The notes beneath the pieces were generated by a model. The model was given only the letters and a program-made list of their open reading frames with translations, did no database searches and was not told where the DNA came from. From positions 3,128,001 to 3,192,000 of the forward strand of contig NZ_CP092334.1 in the NCBI RefSeq assembly GCF_018595685.2: a DNA stretch of 64,000 nucleotides. The letters run 5' to 3'. The DNA is from Flavihumibacter rivuli (GTDB taxonomy: Bacteria > Bacteroidota > Bacteroidia > Chitinophagales > Chitinophagaceae). A program made the translations under genes and the position numbers. Shown in pieces: positions 1 through 52,939 of the stretch (the first letter of the stretch is position 1; the number at the start of each line of letters is the position of its first letter).

Positions 1-1273
1 AAGGTTCTTCTGTACCCTTGCTGATCAGGTCATCGATCAAAACCCCAATATAGGCATCACTTCTTTTCAGGATTAGGGGGTCCTGTTCCTTTACTTTGAG
101 GTGGGCATTGATCCCTGCCATCAAACCCTGGCAGGCTGCTTCTTCATAACCTGTCGTTCCGTTGATCTGTCCAGCAAAGAAGAGGTTCCCAATCAATTTT
201 GTTTCCAGGGAGTAACGCAATTGGGTTGGTGGGAAATAATCATATTCAATCGCATAACCTGGTCTGAACATCTTAGCCTGCTCAAATCCGGGTATACTGG
301 TTAGGGCTTTGTACTGTACATCTTCCGGTAAAGAGGTAGAAAATCCATTCACATAGATCTCAACGGTATTCCATCCTTCCGGTTCTACAAAGATCTGGTG
401 CCTTTCCCTGTCTGCGAAGCGGTTGATCTTATCCTCGATACTTGGACAATACCTTGGTCCTACCCCTTCTATCCTGCCGGTAAACATGGGACTTCTATCG
501 AAACCTGTTTTCAGTAATTCATGGGTATTGGAATTGGTATAGGTGATAAAACAACTTCTTTGTTCTTCCGCACTTATCCGCTCAACGGGAAGGTAAGAGA
601 AGCCAATGATCTCTTCATCCCCCTTTTGTTCTTCCATTTTTGAGTAGTCGAGGCTCCGTCCGTCAATCCTTGGTGGGGTACCTGTTTTCAATCTGTCTGC
701 TTCAAATCCCAGTTCCACCAGTTGTTCCGTTATTCCGGTTGCAGCCTTTTCCGCTACCCTTCCCCCACCGAAGGTCTTTTCACCAATATGGATCACCCCG
801 TTCAGGAAGGTTCCACTGGTTACCACAACTGCTTTCGATTGGATATGGTGACCAAGTCCAGTGATCACTCCACAGGCCCTACCATCCTTAATGATCAGGC
901 CTTTTACCATATCCTGGTAAAAGTCAACATTTGGGGTTTTCTCCAGCATTTCCCTCCAGGTTGCTGCAAAGAGCATCCTATCGTTCTGCGCCCTTGGGCT
1001 CCACATGGCAGGTCCTTTAGATCTATTCAACATCCTGAATTGGATCATGCTTTTATCAGTGACGATACCAGAATAGCCACCCAATGCATCGATTTCCCTT
1101 ACGATCTGTCCTTTGGCAATACCACCCATTGCGGGGTTACAACTCATTTGGGCAATGGTTTGCATGTTCATGGTTACCAGTAAAACCCTGGATCCCATAT
1201 TTGCGGCTGCAGCCGCAGCTTCACAACCTGCATGTCCAGCGCCTACTACTATAACATCATAATCTGGAAACAT
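1..1273 (-). CDS. mnmG: tRNA uridine-5-carboxymethylaminomethyl modification enzyme MnmG (GidA), C-terminus cut off by window edge
   Basis: FAD-dependent enzyme that works with the GTPase MnmE to modify the wobble uridine (U34) of several tRNAs. Translating the minus strand from the ATG at 1273 gives 424 uninterrupted codons. They begin [20 protein letters not shown], the GxGxxG dinucleotide-binding fold of the family, followed by the family stretches [12 protein letters not shown] (about residue 65) and [12 protein letters not shown]. The usual length is about 620 residues, so the C-terminal third lies outside the window. A possible Bacteroidota -7 element (taattttg, 1300-1293) lies about 20 bases before the start, and four parS sites begin 70 bases upstream. 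In many bacteria mnmG is close to the replication origin, which fits those sites. The identification is firm. Confidence 0.97.
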
Positions 1274-1292: not shown

Positions 1293-1300
1293 CAAAATTA
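1293..1300 (-). promoter_or_regulatory. possible -7 promoter element of mnmG
   Basis: Read on the minus strand the sequence is taattttg, an exact match to the Bacteroidota -7 consensus TAnnTTTG, 20 bases before the mnmG start codon. No TTTG is found at the expected -33 distance, so only half of the promoter is supported. Confidence 0.35.
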
Positions 1301-1342: not shown

Positions 1343-1358
1343 TGTTCCACGTGAAACA
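1343..1358. promoter_or_regulatory. parS site 1 (ParB-binding centromere site)
   Basis: The sequence is tgttccacgtgaaaca. It is one base from a perfect palindrome around CACGTG and differs at one position from the classical TGTTTCACGTGAAACA site of ParB/Spo0J. It is the left-most of four such 16-mers in 560 bp. Confidence 0.85.
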
Positions 1359-1380
1359 CCAAAGAATTAATGATGAAGTT

Positions 1381-1396
1381 TGTTCCACGTGGAACA
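1381..1396. promoter_or_regulatory. parS site 2
   Basis: The sequence is tgttccacgtggaaca, a perfect 16-bp palindrome with the parS core CACGTG, 38 bp from site 1 start to start. Confidence 0.87.
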
Positions 1397-1448
1397 GAAT
1401 GATCAAATTTCCGGATACCAGGATCCTTATTACAATTGTTTACCTATT

Positions 1449-1464
1449 TGTTCCACGTGGAACA
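1449..1464. promoter_or_regulatory. parS site 3
   Basis: Identical to site 2 (tgttccacgtggaaca), 68 bp further on. Confidence 0.87.
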
Positions 1465-1887
1465 GTTAGGTATCGTATTGTATTACTGTTATTTGGCTTA
1501 AAGGTCTGATTGTGTTGGGTTCCTGGAAGGTTGAAGCATTTAAGCGAGCCTTTGTTTGTTATTCGCTATTGTTCTTTAGCCAGACTGGTATTCCTGGTTG
1601 GGTAAATGGCTTTATTATCCCAGGATAGATGGATCTTTTCAAAGAGGTATAATGGGCCTTTCTGCTTTGACTATGGATAAGATTTCCTTACTCTAAAATT
1701 GTTGCCGGTCAGGCTGGTTAGTTTCTTTACTGGCTGAGCTGCCTGCTCTACTTACCCCACTCCTACTTAGCCGGGTGTTGCTTCATTGCTATAGTGTGGA
1801 AGAGTGGATGTGATGGTTAGATATATTTCCCTGTTTATGCAGGCCTTAAGGCGAATGGCGATCCTTTTGTTTATGGTTGCATCTATT

Positions 1888-1903
1888 TGTTCCACGTGGA
1901 ACA
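1888..1903. promoter_or_regulatory. parS site 4
   Basis: Identical to sites 2 and 3, separated from site 3 by 439 bp of non-coding DNA and only 34 bp from the 3' end of ybeY. Confidence 0.87.
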
Positions 1904-1936: not shown

Positions 1937-2380
1937 TTACTTACCAAAGTATAGCTTAAGGTATTTATCCTCCATCTTACGCATCAATATCTCTTCTTGC
2001 TGGGTTTTATCCTTGTACCCACATAGGTGCAAAGCGCCATGGAAGATCACCCTGTGCAGTTCATAGGAGAAGGTTTCATTCAGGTTTTGGGCATTATCCC
2101 TCACCCTGTCGATGCTGATATAAATTTCCCCGGTAGTACCCTGGCCGGGAGCAGAAAGGTCGAAGGTGATGATATCGGTATAATAATCGTGCTGAAGGTA
2201 ATTACGGTTGATCTCCAGGAGGTACTCGTCGGAGCAGAAGATAAAACTCAAACCTTCCAGTTTCTTTTTCTCTTTACGGAAGAGTTCATTCAGGAAGCTT
2301 TTTACTTCATTTCTTTTAGGAAAATGAAAACGTTGGTCCAGGTAGTGGAACTGAATATTATCGGTAGCTTTGTTCATCAT
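1937..2380 (-). CDS. ybeY: endoribonuclease YbeY (16S rRNA maturation)
   Basis: Metal-dependent single-strand endoribonuclease needed for 16S rRNA 3'-end processing and ribosome quality control, acting in the cytoplasm. The C-terminal half has the family signature HGALHLCGYKD. The first two histidines match the known zinc ligands, while the third ligand position of the E. coli protein (HGxLHLxGYDH) is aspartate here; I recall this variant as usual in Bacteroidota. The open frame extends to 2482, but the family starts at the paired ATGs at 2380 or 2377. The longer form would overlap divergent feoA, so I use 2380, giving about 147 residues. Confidence 0.9.
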   Translation of the reverse strand: MMNKATDNIQFHYLDQRFHFPKRNEVKSFLNELFRKEKKKLEGLSFIFCSDEYLLEINRNYLQHDYYTDIITFDLSAPGQGTTGEIYISIDRVRDNAQNLNETFSYELHRVIFHGALHLCGYKDKTQQEEILMRKMEDKYLKLYFGK

Positions 2381-5796: not shown

Positions 5797-8700
5797 ATGC
5801 CCGAAAAAGAATTTACCCTCCCCCTTCATATCTACAGGGCTTCAGCCGGTTCAGGAAAGACCTTCCTGCTGGCCTCCCAGTACCTATGCCTGCTCTTTGA
5901 GCAACCCCATAAGTACAGGGAGATACTTGCGGTAACCTTTACCAATAAGGCCACTGAGGAAATGAAGCACCGTATCCTGGGCGAACTGCGGAAAATTGCC
6001 AAAGGGGAAAAGACCGACTATGGAAGCATTATCCTGGAGAGGTTTCCCGAATTGGCAGAGGGCAACCAGCTGGCCATGAAGGCTGACCAGGTCTATAGGG
6101 CTATCCTTCATGATTATGCGAAGTTTTCTGTTAGCACTATTGACAGTTTTGTGCAGCAGGTGATCCGCTCCTTTGCCTATGAGATCGGCCTGGATGCCGG
6201 CTATGAACTGCAAATGAACCAGGATATTGTAAAGGAGGACCTGGCCGACCGGTTGTTTGAATTATTGGAGACGAATGATGAGTTATTACAATGGGTCCAG
6301 AAAATAGCCCTTGAACGAATCGAGAATGGACAGGCCTGGGACTTCAGGGGTGAGATGCTCAATTTTGCAGGTGAGATCTTCCAGGAGCGGTTCCACCGCT
6401 TTGAAGCCAATATGCGCAACCTCGAAGATCCGACAGCAGCCTTTGAAAGCCTGAAAGCGGGCCTGCAACAAACCATCAGACAGATGGAAGAGCCGATGAT
6501 GGAATGGGCGAAGAAGGCCCAGTCCATCCTGAAGGCTTCTGGCTTGGAACCGGAAGTTTTCAGTTACGCAAAATCAGGATTCATCAATTATTTCAATAAG
6601 GTTATCCAGGACAAGGATTTCAGCCCCAGTAAAAGGGTAATGGAGGCATTGGATAACCTGGACAGGTGGACTAAAAAAGATACAGATGAATCCACCAGGT
6701 CAAGGGTTGCCGCAATTTACCCGCAATACAATGAACTGCTCAACAAGGCGGTTGATCATGTAAGCGAACATATGCTTACTTACCAGACTGCGAAAGTTGT
6801 CCTGGCCAACCTGAATAATATGAACCTGCTCAGGATCATGGCTGAGCAACTGGCGGATTACCGTAAGGAGAACAATGCCCTATTGATCTCGGATACCCAG
6901 CAATTATTGCGGGAACTGGTAAGTGATAATGACGCGCCTTTCATCTATGAGAAGATCGGCAATCGTTTCCAGCATTTCCTGCTGGATGAATTCCAGGACA
7001 CCAGTAGTTTCCAGTGGGACAATTTCAAACCCCTGGTAGAACAGTCCGTATCAACGGGTCAATATAACCTGATCGTTGGGGATGTCAAGCAGTCCATCTA
7101 CCGCTGGCGTAATGGCGATTGGCGATTGTTGCAGGAACAGGTGAAAAGGGATATCGGTGATGTGTATGTGAAAGAGGACAGCCTCAAGGAGAATTACCGG
7201 AGCAGGAAGAACATCATCAGTTTCAATAATTACCTTTTTCATTGTGCCCCCAAAATCCTGCAGCTGGATTTCAACAATGAGATGTCCCAGGTTTCAGATG
7301 AGGCGATCCACCATCGGCTTCAATCCAACCATTACTATGACATCATTGGAACCGCCTATGAAGATGCAGCCCAGGAAATGCCTGCCAGCGCAAAGGATGG
7401 CGGGGTGGTGGATATCCGGTTCTTTGCCAAGGATTCGCGATCGATCCATTCCTGGAGACCCGAAGCAGAAGAATGGTTGTGTTCCCTGATCGATTCATTG
7501 ATCGTGGAAAAAGGAATTGATCCTGCCCAGATCACCCTGCTGACAAGGAATAATAAAGATGCACGCTACCTGATCGACCTCCTCCTTCAATACCAGCAGA
7601 CCACCAAGGCCCGCGCTAGGTATGGTTTGATCTCTACAGATGCGCTCGTCATTAATGCTTCCCCGGCCATCCAGTTATTGCTTGCAGCCTTAAAATACCT
7701 GATCAACGATAAGGATAACCTGGCACTGGTGGAGCTGGTGCAGGCAAATGCTTACAGGCTGGGACTTGACCTGAGTAACCTGGAATGGTACCGCATAAAA
7801 ACTGACCATGCCCTGGCGCAGTTACCAGAGGCTTTTTCAAAAAGAAGGCACTACCTGCTGGAAACAGGATTATATGAATGTGTGGAAGAATTGATCAGCA
7901 TATTCTCCCTGGATAGCTGGACAAGGGAACAAGCCTATGTATTGGCATTCCGGGATATGGTGAACAAGTTCAGTGTGAAAGGAAGGGCCGATATCCGGGA
8001 ATTCCTGGAATGGTGGGCTGATGAAGGCGAAAAAAGGGCCCTGCCCATGTCCTCTTCCGCCAATGCCATCCAGGTGATGACCATCCATAAATCCAAGGGA
8101 TTGGCGTTCGATGTGGTCATCGTACCCTATGCAGATTGGAAGTTACAGAATGACCAGGGCAGACTATGGTGCCAATGGAAGGTAGAAGGATCGCCCATTG
8201 AAGTGGTCCCGGTTAGTATCAGTAAGTCACTAGCGCAAACCCATTTCGCTTACGACTATTTTGAAGAACAGCTGATGGCAAGGATGGATGCATTGAACAT
8301 GTTGTATGTAGCGCTTACTCGTACCCGTCAGGCCATGTACATAATGGCACCAATGCCTTCCGAGAAATCAGAAAAGGAAGGCAGTATCTCAACAATTGGG
8401 GATTTGCTGTACCATTCCCTCAAACAATCGGCAAGCTCCCTTCCAAAGGGGCAGGAGGATTATTCTGCCAATTTTGAATCGGGAAAACTTTGTATAGACG
8501 GTGAAATTACCGGTAATGGTAAAGGCAATGCCAGCGAAGACGCACTTGTACTGCAACCCTTCACTGCACATCCTGAATTGCTGAAAGACCTAAGGGAGCC
8601 GGCCAGGCATGAGCTGATCCTGCAGTTGTCCACCAATGACCAACAGAAGATTGGCCAGCTAGCCCACCTGGCACTTGCTAAGATCAGCCATCCGGATGAT

Positions 8701-30539: not shown

Positions 30540-30612
30540 GGTGCGGTAGCTCAGTTGGTAGAGCAAAGGACTGAAAATCCTTGTGTCGCCGGTTCGATTC
30601 CGGCCCACACCA
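30540..30612 (+). tRNA. tRNA-Phe (anticodon GAA)
   Basis: A 73-base tRNA. The D stem is gctc/gagc, the anticodon stem aagga/tcctt with loop ctGAAaa (anticodon GAA at 34-36), the variable loop gtgtc, and the T stem gccgg/ccggc with loop ttcgatt. The CCA end is not encoded. The acceptor stem ggtgcgg/ccacacc has one mismatch (C5 with A68). A promoter upstream and a terminator immediately downstream show a single-gene transcript. Confidence 0.95.
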
Positions 30613-51244: not shown

Positions 51245-52939
51245 ATGTATCCCTTCCGATTGCTTCCCTTTCTTGCTTTACTATCCTTAGCCTCCTGCAG
51301 GTATGCCACCCAACAGGTGAATTATGCAACGGCTATCTACAAGAATGCAAAGGTCTGGACGGGTGACAGCAGTAATCGTTCTGCTTCCGTCATTGCAGTG
51401 AAGGATAGCGTGATCATCTATGTGGGCAATAATGCAGATAGCTTGCGGGGGCCTGATACGGAAGTGGTGGATGTTTCAGGCCAGATGATCCTCCCCGGTT
51501 TTATTGACAACCACAGCCATTTCATTTCAGGAGGTTACCAGCTGGCCTCTGTGGACCTGAAGCTGGCAAAGAATCCTGCAGACTTTATAACCATTCTGAA
51601 GGATTATGCCGCACAGTTAAAGGATGATCGCTGGATCCAGGGTGGTAATTGGGATCATGAGGGGATCGGGGGGAAACTTCCGACAAGGTATTGGATCGAC
51701 AGCATTAGCGGTAACCATCCGGTTTTTGTATCCCGCTATGATGGCCATATGGCTTTGGCCAATAGTCTTACCCTGAAACTGGCCGGTATCAACAGGAATA
51801 CGCCGGATCCCCCTGGTGGTGAAATTGTACGCGATCCCAGGACCGGTGAGCCAACAGGGGTATTGAAAGATGCAGCCATGGACCTCGTTTATGCAAAGAT
51901 CCCGCCCCCATCAGCAAAGGAATTGGAAGAAATGCTGCAGCGGGCAACCGCCCATGCATTAGAGCATGGTATCACACAGGTCCATGATGTCGGCAGCTAT
52001 GGCGGCTGGACAGACCTTGAAGCCTACCGTCGTGCCAGAACGGCCGGAAGCTTATCCATCAGGATCTATTCCATGGTTCCTGTGAATAGCTGGCGCAGGA
52101 TGGTTGAATATGTGCGGGAGAATGGAAAGGGTGATGATATGCTTCATTGGGGAGCTTTGAAGGGATTCGTAGATGGTTCGCTAGGTTCTACTACTGCCTG
52201 GTTTTATCAGCCCTATCTCGATGAGCTGAAGAAAACGGGGCTGTTACTGGCCGACTCCAATGAGTTAAGGCAGCAGATCCTGTCAGCAGATTCAGCCGGT
52301 TTGCAACCTGCGATCCATGCCATAGGCGATAGGGCAATAGACTGGGTATTGGATGTTTTTGCGGAAGCACAAACCAGAAGTGGCAAAAGGGAAAGTCGAT
52401 TCAGGGTTGAACATAGCCAGCACCTCAGTAAGACAGCGATCGACCGGTTTGCGGCCATGAAAGTGATCCCATCCATGCAGCCCTACCATGCGATTGATGA
52501 TGGAAGATGGGCCTCTAAACGACTCGATGATGACCGGCTCAAAAGGACCTATGCCTTCAAATCATTGCTGGATGCGGGTGCCCGGGTGACCTTTGGTTCA
52601 GACTGGGTGGTGGCGCCGCTCTCACCGATCGAAGGGATCAATGCAGCGGTCAACCGCCAGACCCTGGATGGCAAGCATCCTGGAGGTTGGTATCCGGAAC
52701 AGCGCATCACAGTTGAACAGGCCCTCCGGTGTTACACGGTAAACAATGCTTATGCTGCTTTCCTGGAGAAAAAGACGGGGATGCTAAAGCCTGGTATGCT
52801 GGCAGACTTCGTGGTATTGTCCGATGACCTGCTTACCCTTCCACCTGCTGAGATCCTTACGGTGAAGGTTACGCGAACAATTCTCAATGGCAAATTGGTA
52901 TATGAGAAGCAGCGCAGTGAAGATCACCATCAACATTAA
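51245..52939 (+). CDS. amidohydrolase family protein (YtcJ/AepA type), lipoprotein
   Basis: A metal-dependent hydrolase of 564 residues. The N-terminus is a lipoprotein signal (LASC at about 17). The amidohydrolase_3 barrel has NHSHF (HxH metal site, about 90), QGGNWDHE, GGEIVRDPRTGEPTGVLKDAAMDLV, the histidine in AIHAIGDRAIDWVLD and TFGSDWVVAPLSPIEGI. Members act on amides, formamides or cyclic compounds; the substrate is unknown. It is the first of four close-packed plus-strand genes (6 bp to the rhamnosidase), so a role in processing a rhamnose-containing compound is possible. Confidence 0.9.
   Translation: MYPFRLLPFLALLSLASCRYATQQVNYATAIYKNAKVWTGDSSNRSASVIAVKDSVIIYVGNNADSLRGPDTEVVDVSGQMILPGFIDNHSHFISGGYQLASVDLKLAKNPADFITILKDYAAQLKDDRWIQGGNWDHEGIGGKLPTRYWIDSISGNHPVFVSRYDGHMALANSLTLKLAGINRNTPDPPGGEIVRDPRTGEPTGVLKDAAMDLVYAKIPPPSAKELEEMLQRATAHALEHGITQVHDVGSYGGWTDLEAYRRARTAGSLSIRIYSMVPVNSWRRMVEYVRENGKGDDMLHWGALKGFVDGSLGSTTAWFYQPYLDELKKTGLLLADSNELRQQILSADSAGLQPAIHAIGDRAIDWVLDVFAEAQTRSGKRESRFRVEHSQHLSKTAIDRFAAMKVIPSMQPYHAIDDGRWASKRLDDDRLKRTYAFKSLLDAGARVTFGSDWVVAPLSPIEGINAAVNRQTLDGKHPGGWYPEQRITVEQALRCYTVNNAYAAFLEKKTGMLKPGMLADFVVLSDDLLTLPPAEILTVKVTRTILNGKLVYEKQRSEDHHQH

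Follow-up and report, generated by a model that had tools for sequence, protein, structure and literature searches.

A parS cluster beside mnmG as the very probable origin-proximal centromere of a Chitinophagaceae chromosome, and a composite element in the same slot of relatives

Few DNA sites of bacteria are as conserved as the ParB-binding site parS, whose distribution was reportedly surveyed by Livny et al. in 2007. In Pseudomonas aeruginosa, the four 16-bp sites parS1-4 lie near oriC in a genome that encodes ParA, ParB and SMC, according to the available part of PMC4368675. In the gut bacteria covered by the accessible text of PMC10197239 (12 strains, including two Bacteroidetes), parS clusters mark the origin away from dnaA. 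The sections of PMC10419367 at hand describe the half-parS heptamers GTTCCAC and GTTTCAC as occupied by Pseudomonas ParB in cells, while B. subtilis ParB showed no binding to half-parS and Caulobacter ParB bound it weakly. The Caulobacter residues contacting parS include Q162, G170, K171, R173, N178, G201 and R204 (PMC7383237, in the portion available).

The window, i.e., the whole stretch of 64,000 nucleotides analysed here, corresponds to C1:3128001-3192000 of the single contig of its genome (4,297,234 bp). The initial annotation read four 16-bp parS palindromes, three of them identical, between ybeY and mnmG, and exact matching confirmed this reading. The features of the locus are the following:

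1..1273, minus strand: mnmG, 5′ part; the whole protein has 622 aa and runs past the left edge of the window (translation across the border and homologues)
1293..1300, minus strand: likely mnmG promoter element TAnnTTTG, kept in relatives (alignment)
1343..1358, no strand: parS site 1, TGTTCCACGTGAAACA, exact match, closest of the four to mnmG
1381..1396, no strand: parS site 2, TGTTCCACGTGGAACA, exact match
1449..1464, no strand: parS site 3, TGTTCCACGTGGAACA, exact match
1465..1887, no strand: non-coding spacer between sites 3 and 4 (alignment of 14 stretches; tblastn, Pfam and profile search)
1888..1903, no strand: parS site 4, TGTTCCACGTGGAACA, exact match, closest of the four to ybeY
1937..2380, minus strand: ybeY, 147 aa from ATG (open frame, and homologues in 28 of the 28 genomes searched)

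The TAnnTTTG element is presumably a promoter motif of the Bacteroidetes type.

Chromosomal parS sites are 16-bp palindromes close to TGTTTCACGTGAAACA, few in number and grouped near the origin; here, the four sites match TGTTNCACGTGNAACA exactly and all lie within 561 bp, with start-to-start spacings of 38, 68 and 439 bp. When the window was scanned with up to 3 mismatches, these four sites and one 3-mismatch site at 52730 were found, and shuffled windows gave a mean of 0.73 matches, five being reached in 1 of 100 shuffles. Genome-wide, TGTTNCACGTGNAACA has 4 exact places, all in the cluster, none at 1 mismatch and 12 with 2 mismatches, the pattern read backwards giving 8 places at ≤2 mismatches. 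The earlier statement that parS occurs nowhere else in the 64 kb is thus borne out for exact sites, and extends to the 4.30-Mb genome at 0-1 mismatch. Like P. aeruginosa parS1-4, the cluster consists of four 16-bp sites near oriC in a genome encoding ParA, ParB and SMC; unlike them, going by the available part of PMC4368675, it has no 1-mismatch sites elsewhere, and over 1 Mb separates it from dnaA and parAB. The uneven spacing had been called unusual, which the relatives contradict: the most frequent exact spacing among them is 38 bp (seen 5 times), and 380-700 bp gaps occur often.

GC skew was computed for 63 samples of 20 kb each, three of them taken from the window and 60 fetched. Apart from single exceptions at 0.64 and 2.41 Mb, it is positive up to 1.08 Mb and negative between 1.14 and 3.07 Mb; it is close to zero at 3.108-3.148 Mb and positive beyond, 3.39 Mb excepted. 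Its cumulative curve reaches the minimum at 3.108 Mb, next to the parS cluster at 3.129 Mb, so that comparing a whole-genome scan with the skew, as the initial annotation proposed, confines the sites to one cluster at the skew switch. The minimum is not sharp, and a finer profile of the 84 kb around it has its lowest point at 3,124,435 and a nearly equal dip near window position 6000. Twenty skew stretches sampled in G012, of the same genus, were too noisy to place a minimum. The dnaA gene is located at C1:25-1413, 1.17 Mb from the cluster if the contig is circular.

The origin itself probably lies where a ppiD-like gene and nadA are separated by 608 bp (C1:3124602-3125209), at a distance of 4.2 kb from the closest parS site of the cluster, since this gap has a tandem pair of exact DnaA boxes, another three boxes with one mismatch and 60 bp with an AT content of 87%. 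In addition, the double box TTATCCACAGTTATCCACA (≤2 mismatches) occurs once in the whole genome, in this gap, and four of ten other genomes have one copy each, which in G001, G013 and G016 lies 4.4-4.5 kb from the parS core at ybeY-mnmG; the copy of G018 is not near a parS core. A half-parS, TGTTCCACGT, was noticed post hoc inside this likely oriC (L064:16743, C1:3124743). The sequence TGTTYCACG has only 6 occurrences in 1.2 Mb of sampled genome.

One ParB of the genome scores over the family cut-off (TIGR00180; C1:591495-592004), and parA-parB lies 1.76 Mb from the parS cluster if the contig is circular. The frame directly preceding parB encodes a ParA-like protein of 293 aa with a GGVGKTT motif, i.e., the ParA partner expected of a ParABS system. 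The ParB combines a CTP motif with parS-type contact residues: it carries a GERR motif, its residues 41-244 align with a solved ParB (E 1.7e-57), and the seven Caulobacter contacts listed above have identical residues at the same spacing, by which they were mapped, while the contact position S172 differs. An SMC over the family cut-off is encoded at C1:1046822-1050319. That places smc close to the maximum of the sampled skew, where the terminus probably is. As in the gut bacteria, parS and skew together mark an origin from which dnaA can be distant, whereas no condensin was recognised in the two Bacteroidetes of PMC10197239, as far as its accessible text goes.

Of 583 relatives, the 80 with the mnmG most similar to that of the window supplied the related loci, many of them being MAGs. 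The exact 16-mer was found in 43 of the 59 genomes searched, including that of the window; 14 of the 16 genomes without it were tested for the 14-bp core, which was present in 9 and absent from 5. For counts of sites, spacings and positions, seven near-duplicates were removed from the 97 ybeY-mnmG stretches. Among the remaining 90, parS occurs in 45, 69 and 75 at ≤0, 1 and 2 mismatches, and at least two sites occur in 28, 53 and 61, respectively; shuffled stretches gave means of 0.02 and 0.18 loci with parS at 1 and 2 mismatches. In the 61 multi-site stretches, the first parS lies at a median of 13 bp past the ybeY stop and the last at a median of 59 bp before mnmG, and 36 of them have both end sites within 35 bp on the ybeY side and 28-80 bp on the mnmG side. 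In L098 and L178, which are near-identical, the array is much enlarged, with nine parS-like sites (≤2 mismatches) in 1,021 bp.

On sequence grounds, the parS-mnmG association is wide in the order, since parS lies within 300 bp of an mnmG match or inside mnmG in 19 of 20 further regions fetched around parS (17 genomes from the order and 3 from the family). In the remaining region, that of G036, mnmG was not seen. In G057 and G033 (L293-L312, e.g., L307 and L311), parS lies inside the mnmG coding match and not upstream of it. This order-wide link does not appear in the available part of PMC10197239.

The interval from the ybeY stop (1937) to the mnmG start (1273) had been described as non-coding; accordingly, its open frames do not exceed 61 aa and it contains no Rfam or tRNA match, the sole one in the window being a tRNA-Phe at 30540. 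The spacer between sites 3 and 4 (423 bp, 42% GC) had been noted as DNA of no other visible purpose. This description holds within the genus, where an alignment of 14 stretches (12 distinct, mostly from the genus) revealed conservation only of the end sites and of the promoter-like element before mnmG, the letters of the spacer being unconserved. It does not hold for several relatives in which the same gap houses a gene: a CAP-domain protein is encoded in 24 of the 97 stretches, duplicates included (tblastn and Pfam), and in eight loci its gene fills a 668-692 bp gap between two adjacent parS sites. A relic of this gene was sought in the window's spacer by tblastn and profile, was not found and was rejected. 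A structured RNA was likewise set aside: each of 20 shuffles has a poorer fold than the stretch (z -4.1), but the parS palindromes by themselves provide stems, Rfam gave no match and the letters are unconserved. The spacer most likely consists of neutral DNA; in the simplest view, the window has an unoccupied version of a slot where some relatives have a gene, and retains parS at either end. The maintained parts would be the sites close to the end of ybeY and those preceding mnmG. Comparing the region across relatives, another check proposed at the outset, hence shows site and position conserved and spacer not.

Several readings of the cluster can be weighed against these observations. The stretch might itself be oriC, with parS embedded in the origin and the 423-bp spacer as the DnaA-binding and unwinding region. 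Its position at the skew switch and its non-coding nature agree with this, but the best DnaA box in 1275-1936 has one mismatch and belongs to no cluster, steps of 80 bp give 50-71% AT and the spacer is unconserved, while the ppiD-like/nadA gap 4.2 kb away offers exact tandem boxes; an origin inside the spacer was therefore rejected and is very unlikely. ParB is said to be able to affect promoters close to parS; the suggestion of the initial annotation that ParB spreading could silence or shape the transcription of mnmG and ybeY is a weaker part of its reading, an effect that ParB may have here. A reading of the palindromes as mainly operators or 3′-end hairpins of ybeY and mnmG, and not segregation sites, would fit the placement just after ybeY and before mnmG in the 61 multi-site stretches as well as the strong RNA fold. 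However, the sequence is that of parS itself in a genome with one parS-type ParB, and the sites of G057 and G033 are inside mnmG, which leaves this reading extremely improbable.

The four palindromes are, with high confidence, the origin-proximal parS centromere of the chromosome. The initial annotation had proposed the main ParB-loading centromere, and this proposal agrees with sites that are unique in the genome, lie at the skew switch and are 4.2 kb from the likely oriC, with a single chromosomal ParB adjacent to ParA, with an SMC, and with the conservation of site and position. None of the three observations it had named as counter-evidence (random spread of sites, lack of parB, great distance from the skew switch) appeared. 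The window cluster is an ordinary canonical parS in a notable place. By analogy with the known family, we infer that ParB, encoded 1.76 Mb away, would recognise the 16-bp palindromes, close into a CTP-bound clamp at parS and slide onto the flanking DNA, reaching oriC 4.2 kb away. ParA would then separate the ParB patches once they are replicated, driving segregation, and SMC would be loaded by ParB at the cluster.

Fifteen of the 90 stretches lack parS at ≤2 mismatches. The core GTTNCACGTGNAAC is absent from all 12 whole genomes searched for these stretches (the genome-wide test covered G059-G070), two of which have one stray 16-mer place each at one mismatch, and all 12 retain a ParB over the cut-off. 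Eleven of the 12 carry in the slot a composite element, GTTYCACRNRWCMCNGTTYC-N5-GRAACA, the twelfth being the genome of L124. When the loci lacking parS were searched for some other palindrome common to them, no perfect one stood out, and the composite was found by reading the stretches. It occupies the ybeY-mnmG slot, in one or two copies, in 14 of the 80 loci and in one diverged case, L145 (the loci are L081, L086, L097, L102, L105, L109, L117, L120, L127, L129, L136, L144, L145, L147 and L158). Among its carriers is a cultured strain, Sediminibacterium soli WSJ-3, which has two copies and lacks core parS. Canonical parS has a central CACGTG between inverted half-sites, which the composite does not.

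An alignment of 22 copies (14 loci) shows GTTYCAC and GRAAC without variation in degenerate form and a GTTCCAC or GTTTCAC heptamer in all 22, with an information content of 0.02-0.24 bits at the five central bases. These copies exclude those with 2 mismatches (one each in L136, L147 and L145), the second copy of L145 and the reverse arms of L105 and L109; the pattern was derived from the same loci in which it was counted, GTTYCAC and GTTYC being fixed and the GRAAC half free, yet kept in 22 of 22. In L105, L109 and L158, the composite forms near-symmetric palindromes (20-5-20). The heptamers are those of the P. aeruginosa half-parS, although the latter are dispersed as single heptamers, while the composite is longer and sits in a single slot (PMC10419367, in the sections available). 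No composite of this kind was found in the open-access literature searched.

Core parS and the exact composite never occur together: 54 of the 80 loci have the former only, 13 the latter only, none both and 13 neither, this last group comprising canonical sites with 1-2 mismatches, diverged composites (L117, L145), variants (L124, L131) and a cut contig (L115). L120 has the composite together with a canonical-like site with one central mismatch. The slot of L131, a locus without the HNH-like gene described below, contains an outward-facing inverted repeat, GTGACTCGTGGAACA ... TGTTCCACGAGTCAC, similar to the composite's outer half. Among the 16 genomes to which the loci led (G059-G074), 13 have the exact composite and G073 has it at one mismatch, all of these places lying in the ybeY-mnmG slot by coordinates; whole-genome scans found none in G063 and G068. 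In the 59 other genomes, the exact composite occurs in G032 only, outside the slot, and at ≤1 mismatch in 13, about the background of the backward control. In 1.26 Mb of the window's genome, there was no match at ≤2 mismatches.

The ParB of the 11 composite genomes examined keeps the parS-contact residues. A residue separating composite from canonical genomes was sought, and none does so fully, the best being the last residue (Fisher p 2e-4, uncorrected and confounded by kinship). In L124 (G063), two GTTCCACATGGAAC sites stand in place of parS before mnmG, and its ParB (in L239) has S in the place of G201 and K in that of R204; here, ParB and its site have possibly changed together. The ParB-to-Noc transition is a precedent for a ParB-family site altering its sequence, but there the protein changes at residues 173 and 201, which are unchanged in the composite genomes examined (PMC7383237, in the portion available). 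On a tree of mnmG and ybeY (81 rows), the composite requires 11 changes and the supported branches force at least eight putative switches between composite and parS, in either direction; the tree rests on the two genes beside the slot, its bootstrap is unsettled and the counts leave out L124, L115 and L131.

In 14 loci, an unannotated HNH-like gene of about 205 aa sits between the composite and mnmG, and in all 14 a composite copy (0-1 mismatch) lies 32-243 bp before it. Core parS occurs in 0 of these 14 loci vs. 54 of the 66 others (Fisher 6e-9, ignoring kinship). Among nine independent pairs differing in the gene, the composite goes along with it in 8 and against it in 0 (p 0.008), the two being DNA neighbours. 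HNH-like distances do not follow those of mnmG and ybeY (Spearman 0.065, Mantel p 0.38; 13 loci, L109 being excluded as partial), as for a mobile gene or for saturation. A protein search gave 1125 homologues, with no Pfam domain on any of the 120 matches listed. Fold matches are weak and mostly to HNH domains, and no solved relative is convincing (best E 0.57). A viral source of the gene was rejected, no relative being present in viral_contigs.

Two readings of the composite compete. It may be an operator or target of the HNH-like gene, whose cassette displaced parS, with ParB using scattered half-sites or being idle. The fixed place before the gene favours such a cassette with its own operator or target, and the uncorrelated distances and the HNH-type fold matches point the same way; against it stand the half-parS GTTYCAC in one or two copies at the position of parS, the contacts kept by ParB in the 11 genomes and L145, which keeps two diverged copies with no adjacent HNH-like gene. 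We hold this reading at somewhat less than even probability. Alternatively, the half-parS content, the exclusivity and the retained ParB favour the composite as a plausible replacement centromere. The slot would then be a site of centromere exchange, at which at least 14 sampled Chitinophagaceae would have replaced canonical parS by a composite of 32-45 bp with half-sites and no CACGTG, in at least eight switches, travelling with the 205-aa HNH-like gene and loading an otherwise parS-type ParB; in this extended form, the proposal is tentative and on balance doubtful. Because all canonical sites of such a genome lie in one slot, a single cassette swap would exchange the whole centromere.

The cluster of the window places origin and centromere together, where a numbering based on dnaA would put the origin 1.17 Mb away. 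In relatives, parS, mnmG and oriC stay together though dnaA and parAB lie elsewhere. The genomes with the composite, which combine a parS-type ParB and the lack of core parS with one composite element in that slot, would represent a natural experiment on the change of a centromere sequence.
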